Shown in pieces: positions 30,549 to 36,758 of a stretch of 59,414 nt of DNA. A program made the translations under genes and the position numbers. The stretch is from Myxococcales bacterium. GTDB taxonomy: Bacteria; Myxococcota_A; Polyangia; Polyangiales; Polyangiaceae. Within the stretch, counting starts at the first letter, position 1; every line of letters starts with the position of its first letter. The notes under the pieces are model-generated. The model ran no database searches. It worked only from the letters and a program-made list of their open reading frames with translations, and was not told where the DNA came from. The stretch is taken from positions 1,061-60,474 of the forward strand of contig JAGQJA010000102.1 in the NCBI GenBank assembly GCA_020430845.1. The letters are read 5' to 3'.

Positions 30549-32114
30549 GTGACGCGAGCGGCGCCGCGGGACCGAGCCGGTACCGCTCGAGCTGCGCTGG
30601 GCGCGCTCGTGAGCGGGATCGTGTTCGCGCTCACCGCCCCGCCGACCGACGCGCCGCTCGGGCTGCTCGCGGGCCTCGTGGGCTTCGCGCTGTGCATGCC
30701 GCCGGCCGAGGGCGAGCCACGCGCGCGACGCGCCGTGCTGGTGGGGCTCATGTTCGGGCTCGGCGCCAACCTAGTCGCGCTCCGGTTCGTGCCCGAGGTC
30801 ATCACGCGCTTCACCCCGCTCGGCCAGGCGCCCGCGACGCTCGCGCTGGTGCTCCTGTCGCTCGCGCAGGCGATCCCGTGGCTGCTCGGCGCGCTCTCGG
30901 CGCACGTGCTGGCGCGCAGGGGCGTCGCGCGTTGGCTCGCGTTCGCGTGCGGCGTCTACGTGGCCACGTTCGTCCCGGCCATCTTCCCCTGGACACCGGC
31001 GGGCGGCCTCGCGACGTGGCCGTGGATGATCCAGCTCGCCGACGTCGTCGGTGAGCGCGGCGTGAGCCTGCTGATCGCAGCCGCGACGGGGCTCTTCGCC
31101 GACGCGGTGACCACGCTCCGCCGCGGCGGGACGGCCCCGCGCGCGTCCGTCGTCCCCATGGCGATCGGCGTCGCGCTGCTCGTCGGCATGGCGCTCCACG
31201 GCGCCGCCCGCAGCGCCTCGGTCGAGCGCGCGCGCCGAGAGGCTCCCCACGCGCGCGTCGCCGTGGTGCAGCCGCTCTTCGAGGCGTTCGACCGGTGGGA
31301 GGCCGAGCGCTCGGCGATGATGATGGAGCGCCTCACCTCGCTCACGCTCGCGGCAGAGAAGCGCGGCGCCGAGCTCGTGGTGTGGCCCGAGTCGGCCTAT
31401 CCCTACCCCATCCCGCACGCGCTGCGGCGCTCGCCGGTCGGACCGCGCGCCGTCCTCGGCTACGGCGTGCGCGGCCCCGTCCTCACCGGCGCGTACACCA
31501 CGGGCGCGGGCGGGGCTTCGTACAACGCCGCCATCCTCGCCCGCTCCGACGGCTCGATCGCGCGGCCCTACGCCAAGCGCCACCTCTTGTGGTTCGGCGA
31601 GACGGTCCCGCTCTCGGACACGTTCCCGTGGCTGAGGCGCGTCTTCGCGCGGGGCACGGGCATCTTGCCCGGTGATCACCAGGTGCTCTTCGAGGCGGGG
31701 GCCGTCCGCGCGGCGGTGCTCAACTGCTACGAGGACACGCTGCCCGTGGCCGGACGCGAGGCGATGGAGGTCGAGCCCAACCTGCTCGTCAACGTCACCA
31801 ACGACGCGTGGTTCGCCGGCAGCGCCGAGGGCGAGCTCCACCTGCGGCTCGCGGTCCTGCGCGCCGTCGAGGCGCGGCGCGACATGGTGCGCGCGGTCAA
31901 CGCAGGCCCCACGAGCTGGGTCGACGCGGCGGGGGTGGTCCGGCTGCGGTACGTGGGCCCGGTGCCGGCGGCGCCGCTCACGAGCCCTGCGCTGCTCGAG
32001 GGCAAGACGTTCTACAGCCGGCACGGTGACGGCCCCTTCGCCGCGCTCGTGGCGCTCGCGGCGGTGACCGGCGCCCTCCGCGCGCGCCGGCGACGCGAGG
32101 CCGCGGCGGGCTGA
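30549..32114 (+). CDS. lnt: Apolipoprotein N-acyltransferase
   Basis: Inner-membrane enzyme that adds the third acyl chain to lipoproteins so that the Lol system can export them. The 521-residue protein starts with GTG and has about six N-terminal membrane helices plus a C-terminal one. The nitrilase-type periplasmic domain shows all three catalytic residues: Glu near 281 (VVWPESAYPYP), Lys near 342 (YAKRHLLWFGE) and Cys near 393 (VLNCYEDT). Many lipoproteins in this window would be its substrates, and a LolA-like carrier is encoded 4 kb away. Confidence 0.95.
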   Translation: MTRAAPRDRAGTARAALGALVSGIVFALTAPPTDAPLGLLAGLVGFALCMPPAEGEPRARRAVLVGLMFGLGANLVALRFVPEVITRFTPLGQAPATLALVLLSLAQAIPWLLGALSAHVLARRGVARWLAFACGVYVATFVPAIFPWTPAGGLATWPWMIQLADVVGERGVSLLIAAATGLFADAVTTLRRGGTAPRASVVPMAIGVALLVGMALHGAARSASVERARREAPHARVAVVQPLFEAFDRWEAERSAMMMERLTSLTLAAEKRGAELVVWPESAYPYPIPHALRRSPVGPRAVLGYGVRGPVLTGAYTTGAGGASYNAAILARSDGSIARPYAKRHLLWFGETVPLSDTFPWLRRVFARGTGILPGDHQVLFEAGAVRAAVLNCYEDTLPVAGREAMEVEPNLLVNVTNDAWFAGSAEGELHLRLAVLRAVEARRDMVRAVNAGPTSWVDAAGVVRLRYVGPVPAAPLTSPALLEGKTFYSRHGDGPFAALVALAAVTGALRARRRREAAAG

Positions 32115-33365: not shown

Positions 33366-34127
33366 GTGCCAGCGGACGGAGAGCACGGAGTCGCGACGGA
33401 CGAGCTCACGCGCGCGGTCGCGTGGACGGCGAGCGCGTGCGTCCTCGTCCCCGCGTTCGACGCAGGGCGCAGCGTCGGCGCCGTGATCGACGCCGTGCGG
33501 GCCCAGCTCCCGGAGCTCGGAGAACGCTTGCTGGTGATCGACGACGGCTCGCGCGACGACACCGCGGCCCGCGCGCGAGAGTCGGGGTGCGAGGTGCTCG
33601 CGCACGGACAAAACCGCGGAAAAGGCGCTGCGCTCAAGACCGGCCTCGCGACCGCGCACGCGCGCGGGTGGACGGTGGCGCTCACGATCGACGCCGACGG
33701 GCAACACCCGGCGGACGAGGCCCGCCGCGTTCTGTACGCCGCATCCGATCCCGCGGCGCTCGTGCTCGGCGTGCGCGACCTGTCACGCGACGGGGCGCCC
33801 TCGAAGAACCAGGCGTCGAACGCGATCTCCAACTACTTCCTCTCGCGATTCGCGGGGCGCCCGCTGCGCGACACGCAGTGCGGCCTCCGGCGCTATCCCG
33901 TTGCGGCCACGCTCGCGCTCGACGCGCGCGGAGATCGCTACGACTTCGAGGCCGAGGCGCTGCTGCTCGCGAGCCGCGCCGGCGTGCCGATCGTGGAGAT
34001 CGACGTCCGGGTCTTCTATCCGCCCGAGCACGAGCGGCAGACGCACTTTCACGTCGTGCGCGACCCCGCGCGCATCATCCGGAGCGTCGTCCGCGCGGCC
34101 ACGCGCGGCGCGCGGACGAGGCGTTGA
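33366..34127 (+). CDS. Family 2 glycosyltransferase (polyprenyl/dolichyl-phosphate type)
   Basis: A 253-residue GT-A glycosyltransferase resembling dolichyl-phosphate mannose/glucose synthases. The nucleotide-sugar motifs are VLVPAFDAGRSVGAVIDAV, LLVIDDGSRDDT, NRGKGAALKTGL and TIDADGQHPAD (DxD-type). RDTQCGLRRYP is conserved in this subgroup. There is no membrane helix. The GTG at 33366 is the likely start. Its stop overlaps a TTG start of the next gene (TTGA). With the C45-like and LolA-like genes it forms a coupled operon that probably makes or moves an envelope lipid or glycan. Confidence 0.88.
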   Translation: MPADGEHGVATDELTRAVAWTASACVLVPAFDAGRSVGAVIDAVRAQLPELGERLLVIDDGSRDDTAARARESGCEVLAHGQNRGKGAALKTGLATAHARGWTVALTIDADGQHPADEARRVLYAASDPAALVLGVRDLSRDGAPSKNQASNAISNYFLSRFAGRPLRDTQCGLRRYPVAATLALDARGDRYDFEAEALLLASRAGVPIVEIDVRVFYPPEHERQTHFHVVRDPARIIRSVVRAATRGARTRR

Positions 34128-35581
34128 CGCCGCGCCGCAAGAGAAGGCTGGGCGCGGTCTTGGCGATGCTCGCCGTGCCCGTGGTCGCGCACCTCGTCAT
34201 CGACCGCGCGACCCGGATCCGGGCCGTCGCCGTCGACACACCGGCGCTCGAGGTCCGCGAGCAAGGCGAGCTGCGGCGTGCCGGCCCGAGCTGGACGCGC
34301 ACCGTCGGCGGGCTGCGCGTCACCTACCTGGCCGGCACGCCCGAGGAGATCGGCACGGCGCACTCCCGCCTGCTCTACGATCGCATGGTCGCCGACGAGG
34401 CCATCATGTGGGACGGCCTCGACCACGTGGTGCCCTTCCCGCCGGCGCGCTGGCTCTTGATGGACGTCGCGCGGGTGAAGTACCGAGGCGTCGCCGCGGG
34501 CTTCCCCGAGCCACGCGCGCGGGAGCTGGCCGCCGAGGCCGCCGCATTCACGCCCGACCCGTACACCGCTCACCTGCCGACGTACCAGCGGATGAGCTAC
34601 CTGCACGCGCTCTACGACATCGCGCTCGGCTTCGAGGGCTCCCCGCTCGTGGGGTGCACGAGCTTCGCGCTCGGCCCCACGCGTACGCGCGACGGTCACG
34701 TGCTGGTGGCGCGGGCCTTCGACTTCGAGGCGGCCGACGTCTTCGACATCGACAAGACGGTGTTCGTCGTACGCGAAGCGGGTCGCATCCCGTTCTTGAG
34801 CGTCTCGTGGCCCGGCCTCGTGGGGGTCGTCACCGGGATGAATGCCGAGGGCGTCTCGCTCGTCGTACACGGTGCGCGGGCGGGCGAGCCGTCGAGCGAC
34901 GGCATGGCCATCGTGTTCTCCATCCGCGAGGCGCTGTCGCAAGCGCGCGACGCCGACGAGGCCGCGCGCATCCTCTCGGAGCAGAAGACGATGGTCTCGC
35001 ACATGGTGCTGGCGACAGACGCGGCGGGGCGCTTCGTGGTGGTGGAGCGCGCGCCCGGGAGCGCCGCCTTCGTGCGCAGCGCCGGCACCGACACGGCCGC
35101 GCTCACCAACCACCTCGAGGGCCCCCTCTCGGGCGATCCCAAGAACCTCCGCGTGCGCGACAAGACGACGACGCTCGCCCGGCGCGCACGCATCGACGAG
35201 CTGCTCTCGGGCGTCGCGCCCAAGAGCGCCGACGTCGAGCGCGCCGTGGCGATGCTGCGAGACCACGTGTGCGCGGGGGGCGAGGCTTGTCCGCCGGGCG
35301 ATCGACGCACCATCGACGCGTTCATCGCGACGCACGGCTTCGTCGCCGACCTCACCGACCGCGTGGCGTGGGTGTCGTCGGGGCCTCACCTCTCGGGAAA
35401 GTTCACGCGCATCGACCTGCGCGCGACGCTCGAGCACGCCGCGGACGGCGGAGACCCGGCTGCGCCGTCGGAGATCGCCGCCGACCCGGCACTCGTCGAC
35501 GGGCGTTACGAGCAGGGACGCGAGCGCGCCGGCGCACCGCTCTTCGGCGGTGATCGACAGAAGCTCGGAGGCCCGCGATGA
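34124..35581 (+). CDS. C45/Ntn-type acyltransferase-peptidase-like protein, membrane-anchored
   Basis: A 485-residue protein of the acyl-CoA:6-aminopenicillanic acid acyltransferase (peptidase C45) type. An N-terminal signal-anchor (AVLAMLAVPVVAHLVI) puts it outside the cytoplasmic membrane. The Ntn nucleophile is Cys178 in LVGCTSFALG, preceded by Gly as in self-cleaving relatives. LVARAFDFE, VGVVTGMNAEGVSLVVHGAR and ALTNHL match the C45 core. Family members transfer or remove acyl groups on amides. The TTG start is chosen because it overlaps the GT2 stop; an ATG 40 bases further on is the alternative. The substrate is unknown. Confidence 0.82.
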   Translation: MTPRRKRRLGAVLAMLAVPVVAHLVIDRATRIRAVAVDTPALEVREQGELRRAGPSWTRTVGGLRVTYLAGTPEEIGTAHSRLLYDRMVADEAIMWDGLDHVVPFPPARWLLMDVARVKYRGVAAGFPEPRARELAAEAAAFTPDPYTAHLPTYQRMSYLHALYDIALGFEGSPLVGCTSFALGPTRTRDGHVLVARAFDFEAADVFDIDKTVFVVREAGRIPFLSVSWPGLVGVVTGMNAEGVSLVVHGARAGEPSSDGMAIVFSIREALSQARDADEAARILSEQKTMVSHMVLATDAAGRFVVVERAPGSAAFVRSAGTDTAALTNHLEGPLSGDPKNLRVRDKTTTLARRARIDELLSGVAPKSADVERAVAMLRDHVCAGGEACPPGDRRTIDAFIATHGFVADLTDRVAWVSSGPHLSGKFTRIDLRATLEHAADGGDPAAPSEIAADPALVDGRYEQGRERAGAPLFGGDRQKLGGPR

Positions 35582-36249
35582 GCGTCACGCGCCGAGCGGC
35601 CATCGCCGGTGCCGTGAGCGTGCTCGCCGCGCCGCGCCTGGCTCGTGCAGACGCAGACGCCGGCGCCGCACGCGAGCCCCACGTCGAGGTCGACGCGGCC
35701 GCGCTCGCCGCGCTGCTCACCGAGGTGGCCAAGGCGCGACGCGCGGTCAAGACGCTCACGGCCTCGTTCACGCAGGAGCGCGTCATCGCGCTGCTCGCCA
35801 CGCGCGTCCGATCGACGGGCAAGCTCGTGATGGTCGGCCCCGATCGCCTGCGGTGGGAGCTCGCCCCGCCCGACCGCATCATCTACTGGATCACGCCCGA
35901 CGGCATCGCGTACCGCACGCCCCGCTCGAGCGCGGCGCTGCCCCCCTCGGGTCAGAGCGCCAAGGTGCAGGCGCTCGCCGACGTGCGCGCGATGATCGGC
36001 GGGGACCTGCACACGCTCGAGAAGCGCTACACGCTCTCTGCCTCTCGCGGCGCGACGGAGGTGACGTTCAAGGGCGCGGCGCGCGAGCCCGCGACGCGGG
36101 TGCGCTCGTTCGAGGTCACGACGGCGAAGGACCTGGTTCGCCCCGTGCGCGCGCGGATCGTCGAGGGCAAGCGCGACGCGACCGAGATCGTCTTCGAGGG
36201 CGTCAAGATCAACGAGACCGTCGACCCCGCGCTGGTTCGACCGAGCTGA
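35578..36249 (+). CDS. LolA-like outer-membrane lipoprotein carrier
   Basis: A 223-residue periplasmic protein. The signal peptide ends at about RLARADA. The half-barrel LolA fold is recognisable from VKTLTASFTQER, STGKLVMVGPDRLRWELAPPDRIIYWITPDG and RIVEGKRDATEIVFEGVKIN. LolA carries lipoproteins from the inner membrane to the outer membrane. LolA-like relatives in biosynthetic clusters are thought to carry other lipids, and the coupled GT2 and C45 genes favour that here. The ATG overlaps the C45 gene stop (ATGA). The gene ends inside the first copy of a 23-bp tandem duplication. Confidence 0.87.
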   Translation: MSVTRRAAIAGAVSVLAAPRLARADADAGAAREPHVEVDAAALAALLTEVAKARRAVKTLTASFTQERVIALLATRVRSTGKLVMVGPDRLRWELAPPDRIIYWITPDGIAYRTPRSSAALPPSGQSAKVQALADVRAMIGGDLHTLEKRYTLSASRGATEVTFKGAAREPATRVRSFEVTTAKDLVRPVRARIVEGKRDATEIVFEGVKINETVDPALVRPS

Positions 36250-36278: not shown

Positions 36279-36383
36279 CGGCGCACGGCGCCGCGGGCCG
36301 GGTGCCAAAACTTGGCCACTCGCGGGCGTCACCACCACACTGCTCGAACCCGCCAGAAGTAGGTGCGGGGAGGACGGTGTGTG

Positions 36384-36758
36384 ATGGCTGAAGCAGCGAA
36401 GAAGCTCGACGGACCCGATCGACGACGCCACCGCGTCTATGTGACGCGGAACACCGAGTACCACTTCCGCGACGGCTTCTGCATCGCCGTGCGCGATCGG
36501 CGCACCGGTGACTTCCTCGCGGGGCACCTCGCGATCCGCAGGCGCCTGCACGGCGGCCTCAAGTTCTACGTCAACGGCGCGATCGTCCCCAACCCGGGCG
36601 ATCCCAGCCCCGGCGAGGCGCTCTATTTCGCCGCCGGCGGGCGCGATCTGGTCACGAGCCCCCTCGAGCGCGTCGAGCGCCCCGCCAAGGCCCTCGTCGC
36701 CGCGTACCCCGCGGGCACCCCCGACGTGGCCGAGCCCGACACGTTCTGCGACGACTGA
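36384..36758 (+). CDS. Small conserved-looking protein of unknown function
   Basis: A 124-residue soluble protein starting at the ATG at 36384, 9 bp after GGGGAGGA. It has mixed alpha/beta character, with HRVYVTRNTEYHFRDGFCIA, GHLAIRRRLHGGLKFYVN and GEALYFAAGGRDLVTSPLERV as the most structured segments. A C-terminal acidic tail follows (EPDTFCDD). No known domain, signal peptide or membrane helix is seen. The codon pattern matches its neighbours, so the gene is probably real. It lies between the LolA-like gene and the acetyltransferase on the same strand. Confidence 0.75.
   Translation: MAEAAKKLDGPDRRRHRVYVTRNTEYHFRDGFCIAVRDRRTGDFLAGHLAIRRRLHGGLKFYVNGAIVPNPGDPSPGEALYFAAGGRDLVTSPLERVERPAKALVAAYPAGTPDVAEPDTFCDD

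Follow-up and report, generated by a model that had tools for sequence, protein, structure and literature searches.

A conserved GT2, C45 acyltransferase and LolA operon of Polyangiaceae with homologues in aryl-polyene and flexirubin clusters: a candidate detached module for lipid assembly and export

Introduction

What does a bacterium assemble with a glycosyltransferase, an autoproteolytic acyltransferase and a periplasmic carrier encoded by three overlapping genes, and where might the product go? The question is raised by a stretch of 59,414 nucleotides from a Myxococcales bacterium of the Polyangiaceae (GenBank assembly GCA_020430845.1, contig JAGQJA010000102.1, positions 1,061 to 60,474), hereafter called the window. 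On its forward strand, at 33366-36249, the genes of a family 2 glycosyltransferase (GT2), of an N-terminal nucleophile (Ntn) enzyme of family C45 and of a LolA homologue overlap head to tail. The assembly comprises 8.6 Mb in 806 contigs, with the window on the contig C706; among named relatives, Labilithrix and other metagenome-assembled genomes of Polyangiaceae are the nearest. Genomes, contigs and loci are denoted by G, C and L numbers where they have to be told apart; G000 is the window genome.

A preliminary description of the window had proposed that the trio makes an unusual (glyco)lipid and delivers it to the outer membrane, and had seen no known pathway to which the combination could be assigned. 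The former proposal would fit the conservation of the trio, the presence of a separate canonical LolA in the same genome and the homologues in pigment-lipid clusters. The latter did not hold: the parts are known, the operon is conserved and the arrangement is new, and the combination itself is known from aryl-polyene and flexirubin clusters, with the same families on a Persicobacter plasmid and in a figure legend of PMC5932025. With belief and doubt about evenly balanced, we favour the reading that the trio forms the linked half of a scattered, detached lipid assembly and export module, as in aryl-polyene and flexirubin clusters, that lacks adjacent polyene synthase genes.

Results

All three proteins of the trio exceed their Pfam cut-offs, and the coordinates and translational overlaps given in the preliminary description are correct. 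The features are as follows.

33366..34127, + strand: GT2 glycosyltransferase, 253 amino acids, GTG start (PF00535, 5e-20)
33540..33551, + strand: GT2 motif DDGS (D59-S62), invariant in 22 of 22 orthologues
33690..33698, + strand: GT2 DxD motif (D109-A-D111), invariant in 22 of 22 orthologues
34124..34127, + strand: overlap of GT2 stop and C45 start, TTGA, from the sequence
34124..35581, + strand: C45 (Ntn) autoproteolytic acyltransferase or hydrolase, 485 amino acids, TTG start (NF040521, 2.5e-42)
34148..34204, + strand: predicted N-terminal membrane anchor of C45, residues 9-27, hydropathy peak of 2.16 after LTPRRKRR
34652..34657, + strand: predicted self-cleavage site Gly177-Cys178 of C45 with Cys178 as nucleophile, invariant in 51 of 51 sequences, structure alignment
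35578..35581, + strand: overlap of C45 stop and LolA start, ATGA, from the sequence
35578..36249, + strand: LolA-fold periplasmic carrier, flexirubin-LolA2-like, 223 amino acids (PF03548, 1e-8)

A GGAGG-like stretch precedes the ATG of the LolA gene. The trio, which was searched for in other genomes, proved to be conserved. With the C45 protein as query, 38 of 58 genomes, the window's own included, gave a match (threshold 1e-3), which was strong (1e-80 or better) in 27 of them, and GT2, C45 and LolA occur together in 11 of the 12 genomes of the genus, the exception being G009. A scan of GTDB contigs with C45 yielded 63 loci, in which genes were called by an in-house GC-position script and not by a standard gene finder; the locus counts are lower bounds, as some contigs end early. 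Cultured carriers include Minicystis rosea DSM 24000, Sorangium cellulosum So ce26 and Polyangium fumosum DSM 14668. GT2 adjoins C45 in at least 51 and a LolA of the trio type lies beside it in at least 33 of the 63 loci, with all three genes at 30, GT2 and C45 only at 21, C45 and LolA only at 3, and C45 alone at 9. The C45/LolA junction is an overlap of -4 or -1 in 22 of 26 hand-listed trio loci; the GT2/C45 junction is such an overlap in 13 and falls within 20 bases in 24. A mere chance neighbourhood was rejected because overlaps and synteny recur across loci. Additional genes between C45 and LolA were observed in the Sorangium loci L076, L085 and L103 (817-871 amino acids, Ser/Thr kinase-like by eye) and, as small genes, at L115:9430-10002, which matches PF03692 (CxxCxxCC), at L068:9416-9895, for which no Pfam family was found, and at L069:1680-2183.

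The link to pigment-lipid clusters emerged from relatives of C45 outside the order. Several of those in a sample of 282 genomes of the phylum lie in open frames of about 1250-1510 amino acids, and in at least 10 of the 20 stretches fetched around such relatives (L120-L128 and L135, all from other Myxococcota) C45 is the C-terminal domain behind an MMPL-like part. Eight of these MMPL::C45 fusions are complete (1231-1315 amino acids), and the other two begin at a contig end. Pfam places MMPL at residues 210-399 (24.9 bits) and AAT at residues 975-1167 (62.8 bits) of the L120 fusion, whose best NCBIfam exporter model is HpnN; for the L127 fusion, Pfam at 0.01 gave AAT and TPR and no MMPL, and its reading as MMPL rests on alignment to L120 (33% identity) and on hydropathy. 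Because a hydropathy peak follows the last exporter helix in all eight complete fusions according to a crude scan, their C45 domain would lie outside the cytoplasm. A fusion of GT2 with an LpxL-like acyltransferase is encoded in 9 of the 10 fusion loci and LolA in 6; the former is the arrangement of ApeJ, which a passage of PMC8253772 names "glycosyltransferase / acyltransferase". The neighbourhood of L120 includes two ketosynthases, a FabA-type dehydratase and a CrtD-like oxidoreductase, and DUF3261, listed as ApeN in the same passage, is present in L121 and L127.

A complete aryl-polyene- or flexirubin-type cluster was found on plasmid pPP6 of Persicobacter psychrovividus (L166, NZ_AP025298.1, 58780-96027). 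It encodes ketosynthases, acyl carrier proteins, LpxL, a thioesterase, LolA, GT2-DUF2062, an MMPL-acyltransferase-methyltransferase, an oxidoreductase, C45, an AMP ligase and a dehydratase that is weakly ApeI-like (28.1 bits, cut-off 28.5). The C45, GT2 and LolA of the window match their pPP6 counterparts at 7e-52, 1e-39 and 1e-7, respectively. According to the legend of figure 5 in PMC5932025, the aryl-polyene synthesis and transport genes of Flavobacteriia include those for GT2, LolA, a lipid A acyltransferase and an acyl-CoA 6-aminopenicillanic acid acyltransferase, i.e., the same families as on pPP6 apart from the exporter. The literature passages found by term searches assign no function to C45 in aryl-polyene or flexirubin clusters. 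Another polyene-type cluster was observed within the family of the window (L210, G017:C73:137500-149471). It comprises ketosynthase-like genes, MMPL, LolA_3, an aromatic amino acid lyase and a GT2 fused to a domain that resembles strictosidine synthase. That the window itself contains a full aryl-polyene cluster was rejected, as the nine window proteins scanned include no ketosynthase, acyl carrier protein or dehydratase; ketosynthase clusters were not sought across the whole genome.

The profile of the GT2 (A2) has ArnC as best PDB match (65 bits) and scores 167-184 bits on GT2s from aryl-polyene-type clusters. The earlier designation of the GT2 as a polyprenyl-phosphate-type enzyme is a matter of resemblance only, with the scores for the NCBIfam equivalogs all below their cut-offs (AglJ 71.5 of 325 bits, PpgS 70.5 of 370, ArnC 42.9 of 529).

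Further parts of such a module are encoded elsewhere in the genomes. An LpxL-like acyltransferase gene (PF03279) precedes C45 in L088 and L101, and the respective genomes, G033 and G026, have GT2 and LolA side by side at another site. Orthologues of this acyltransferase occur in 17 of 18 genomes tried, with 37-48% identity in the 16 besides the query's own and absence from G012. The window genome carries one at G000:C397:3229-4086 and an MMPL exporter at G000:C449:2991-5357, and holds the attachment and export families GT2, LpxL-like, MMPL and LolA of aryl-polyene and flexirubin clusters. Among the 22 family genomes of the phylum sample (thresholds 1e-150 for C45, 1e-80 for GT2 and 1e-50 for LolA, or better), a strong C45 and a strong GT2 go together in the same 15 and are both missing from the remaining 7; of the 15, 14 have the LpxL-like protein and 8 have LolA, and none of the 7 has either. 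In G042, which belongs to another family, GT2, C45, the LpxL-like protein and LolA are encoded on four different contigs. A profile built from the MMPL fusions and two plasmid proteins was applied in a small test, made after the fact: each of the 12 genomes with a trio-type LolA gave a complete or partial match (1e-42 or better), and G031 (GT2-C45 without LolA), G015 and G021 gave none. The profile also matches G017, which has its own polyene-type cluster. MMPL lies beside C45-LolA in a single case, L083, on the other strand. No further module part was recognised in the neighbourhoods of the LpxL-like gene or of the MMPL orthologue, except for a methyltransferase beside MMPL in G033 that resembles a cluster methyltransferase.

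The LolA homologue passes the PF03548 cut-off (35.6 against 23.6 bits) and has the LolA fold (Z 19.6 to Pseudomonas aeruginosa LolA, 2.8 Å over 178 residues), in agreement with its description as a LolA-like carrier. The flexirubin model NF053544 (LolA2_flexi) fits it better than the canonical lolA model TIGR00547, although both remain under their cut-offs (53.5 of 125 and 32.4 of 112 bits). A canonical LolA is encoded elsewhere in the genome (G000:C429; 83.7 bits versus 35.2 for the LolA of the trio). A second canonical LolA was therefore rejected as its identity, as the equivalog cut-off is missed and a better-scoring protein is present.

The C45 protein exceeds both relevant cut-offs (NF040521 C45_proenzyme, 145.4 against 85 bits; PF03417, 50.9 against 23.2 bits, 2e-13). 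Its AlphaFold model (pLDDT 93.8, pTM 0.92) matches the precursor of isopenicillin N acyltransferase (IAT; 2x1c) best among solved structures, with Z 36.9 and 2.8 Å over 336 residues, followed by acid ceramidase (Z 30.6), NAAA (Z 28.9), the lysosomal 66.3 kDa protein (Z 25.5) and the Ntn acylases MacQ and cephalosporin acylase (Z 22-24). Cys178 (codon 34655-34657) aligns with Cys126 of NAAA, Cys143 of acid ceramidase and the first residue of the mature bile salt hydrolase chain, i.e., with the position at which a mature chain starts. Gly177, Cys178, Arg197, Asp200, Asn240, Asn329 and Arg353 are invariant in the alignment of 51 C45 sequences; the last five presumably correspond to the known Ntn catalytic positions. 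Because of this invariance and of the alignment of Cys178 with the starts of mature chains, it is likely that the enzyme cuts itself between Gly177 and Cys178. A hydrophobic anchor follows the basic start, with a helix at residues 3-29 of the model, and the enzyme should therefore face the periplasm. The earlier prediction of a membrane-anchored Ntn enzyme with Cys178 as nucleophile thus agrees with the hydropathy peak and the invariant, structurally aligned cysteine. Class-level relatives in L131, L132, L136, L137 and L139 have Gly, Phe or Arg at this position and are probably inactive as Ntn hydrolases.

In a C45 tree of 36 rows, which has long branches, the stand-alone proteins of Polyangiales fall into a single clade (100/99) and the MMPL fusions into a second one (100/100). 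Seven other C45s are set apart from both clades, two C45s of Bacteroidota clusters and four further Myxococcota rows by a branch with support of only 79/91. Profile scores separate cluster-type from other C45s better than the tree, with 235-329 bits for the former and 42-104 bits for the seven others. In a quick tree of 73 rows, the trio label needs 6 changes, and 15 GT2-C45 rows group as a single clade (98); LolA has thus undergone repeated losses or gains.

Around the trio, the window encodes the apolipoprotein N-acyltransferase Lnt (30549-32114) 1.2 kb upstream, with IHF-like and YbeY genes in between. The order Lnt, IHF-like, YbeY, GT2 recurs in G030 (L047), with one extra gene before GT2. 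A small protein encoded directly after the trio (36381-36758) has no match in Pfam or NCBIfam, yet most loci of the genus and of close relatives encode it as well, at 73-84% identity.

Discussion

The families of the trio, its operon and conservation, the catalytic residues, the homology of all five components to counterparts in aryl-polyene-type clusters and the existence of MMPL::C45 fusions can be read from the sequences. For the module that we favour, we infer the order of the steps, the glycolipid nature of the product, the acyl transfer and all other chemistry as follows. The cytosolic GT2 would add a sugar to a membrane lipid, the LpxL-like acyltransferase encoded elsewhere would acylate the glycosylated lipid, and the MMPL exporter would move it to the periplasmic face. 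There, the anchored C45 enzyme, self-cut before Cys178, would take up an acyl group on this residue and transfer it or, less likely, release it, thereby finishing the lipid, which the LolA homologue would carry to the outer membrane.

Several observations weigh against this scheme. No LolA stands beside C45 in 30 of the 63 loci, and 7 of the GT2-C45 genomes sampled gave no match to it at 1e-6 at any site; it is therefore not obligatory. Because a whole clade keeps GT2-C45 without a trio-type LolA, either the canonical LolA would serve there or delivery of the lipid to the outer membrane would be dispensable. The identity between the LolA of the trio and those of the clusters is low (21-25%), the LpxL-like and MMPL genes lie apart from the trio in the window genome, the co-occurrence counts take no account of phylogeny, and the branch uniting Polyangiales with aryl-polyene-type C45s is weak (79/91). 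Single genomes also deviate: G111 has GT2 and C45 and no LpxL-like match, G013, at 98% completeness, contains GT2 and the LpxL-like gene and lacks C45 and LolA, G012 has GT2-LolA without C45, and the aryl-polyene-like cluster of G017, with MMPL and LolA, is accompanied by no strong C45.

The best surviving alternative, which we nevertheless consider unlikely, is that C45 is a periplasmic lipid amidase and that the operon remodels or salvages N-acyl lipids. Acid ceramidase and NAAA, both N-acyl lipid hydrolases, rank second and third by fold, and their nucleophiles align with Cys178. The closest fold, however, is that of an acyltransferase, IAT, bearing in mind that the fold cannot tell transfer from hydrolysis, and the context of C45 in other phyla is biosynthetic, fused to an exporter and linked to GT2, LpxL and LolA. 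Appreciably less probable still is the modification or routing of lipoproteins, in which GT2 would make a lipid-linked sugar, C45 would acylate or deacylate N-termini and LolA would be a second lipoprotein carrier. The canonical LolA fold and the nearby Lnt gene speak for this, and PMC11885536, in one passage, leaves possible that flexirubin LolA2 carries lipoproteins of its own locus. The genome, however, has the better-scoring separate LolA, the LolA of the trio is nearer to the flexirubin model, a lolA2 deletion in Flavobacterium johnsoniae left gliding unaffected according to the same source, and Lnt is parted from the trio by the IHF-like and YbeY genes, with other trio neighbourhoods farther out in the family. 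An independent acylase, e.g., for acyl homoserine lactones or antibiotics, with functionally unrelated GT2 and LolA neighbours is very improbable: the fold matches include MacQ and cephalosporin acylase, and C45 has neither GT2 nor LolA beside it in 9 of 63 loci, several of them with an adjoining isopropylmalate-type dehydrogenase gene, but the gene overlaps are kept over much divergence, GT2 adjoins C45 in most loci, and a strong GT2 is present even where unlinked (G042, G049, G055, G033 and G026).

If the detached module exists, its reduced machinery, without adjacent polyene genes, separates the lipid-finishing step from pigment synthesis and makes the C45 step of aryl-polyene and flexirubin clusters testable; the MMPL::C45 fusion points to acyl transfer at the periplasmic face and offers a concrete enzyme to test. 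The wider proposal, that Polyangiales make an undescribed, polyene-free outer-membrane glycolipid by this module and that C45 is an unrecognised periplasmic acyl-transfer finishing step in aryl-polyene and flexirubin producers as well, is tentative, and we would rather bet against it. Passages of PMC8253772 propose ApeD/ApeJ attachment and Lol-like transport for aryl polyenes, and PMC11885536 speaks, in the part concerned, of a possible first example of a pathway-specific LolA/LolB.

Comparison with known systems

Aryl-polyene and flexirubin clusters share GT2, an LpxL-like acyltransferase, MMPL/RND and LolA with the proposed module, and C45 too in Flavobacteriia and Persicobacter; in Polyangiales, by contrast, the parts are dispersed and C45 stands alone. 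The attachment and export genes of Escherichia coli were compared by their description in a published gene table and not by sequence: ApeJ as glycosyltransferase/acyltransferase, ApeL as LolA-like, ApeM as RND and ApeN as DUF3261 (PMC8253772, in part). The MMPL::C45 fusions have a homologous C45 (35-36% identity, three compared), keep Cys, Arg197, Asp200, Asn240 and Asn329 and have partners of the same GT2 and LolA families; they differ from the stand-alone family in the joined exporter, in residues 171, 250 and 309 and in a polyketide-type cluster where surrounding genes were identified. LolA2 of F. johnsoniae is the best-scoring LolA subfamily model for the LolA of the window and likewise a second LolA beside a canonical one, but the window protein stays under the curated cut-off, and LolA2 lies in the flexirubin operon (PMC11885536, in part).

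IAT, acid ceramidase and NAAA share the fold and the nucleophile position of C45, whereas their identity to it is 14-17% and they are fungal or animal enzymes and not anchored in a bacterial periplasm. Chp2 is not known to be a C45 protein. The closest parallel in logic is the Chp2-MmpL10 pathway of Mycobacterium tuberculosis, in which acyltrehalose synthesis is divided between the two sides of the membrane and requires MmpL10: as in the proposed module, a cytosolic glycolipid, an MmpL transporter and acyl transfer at the periplasmic face are combined, with the difference that the abstract of PMC4183827 includes no LolA.

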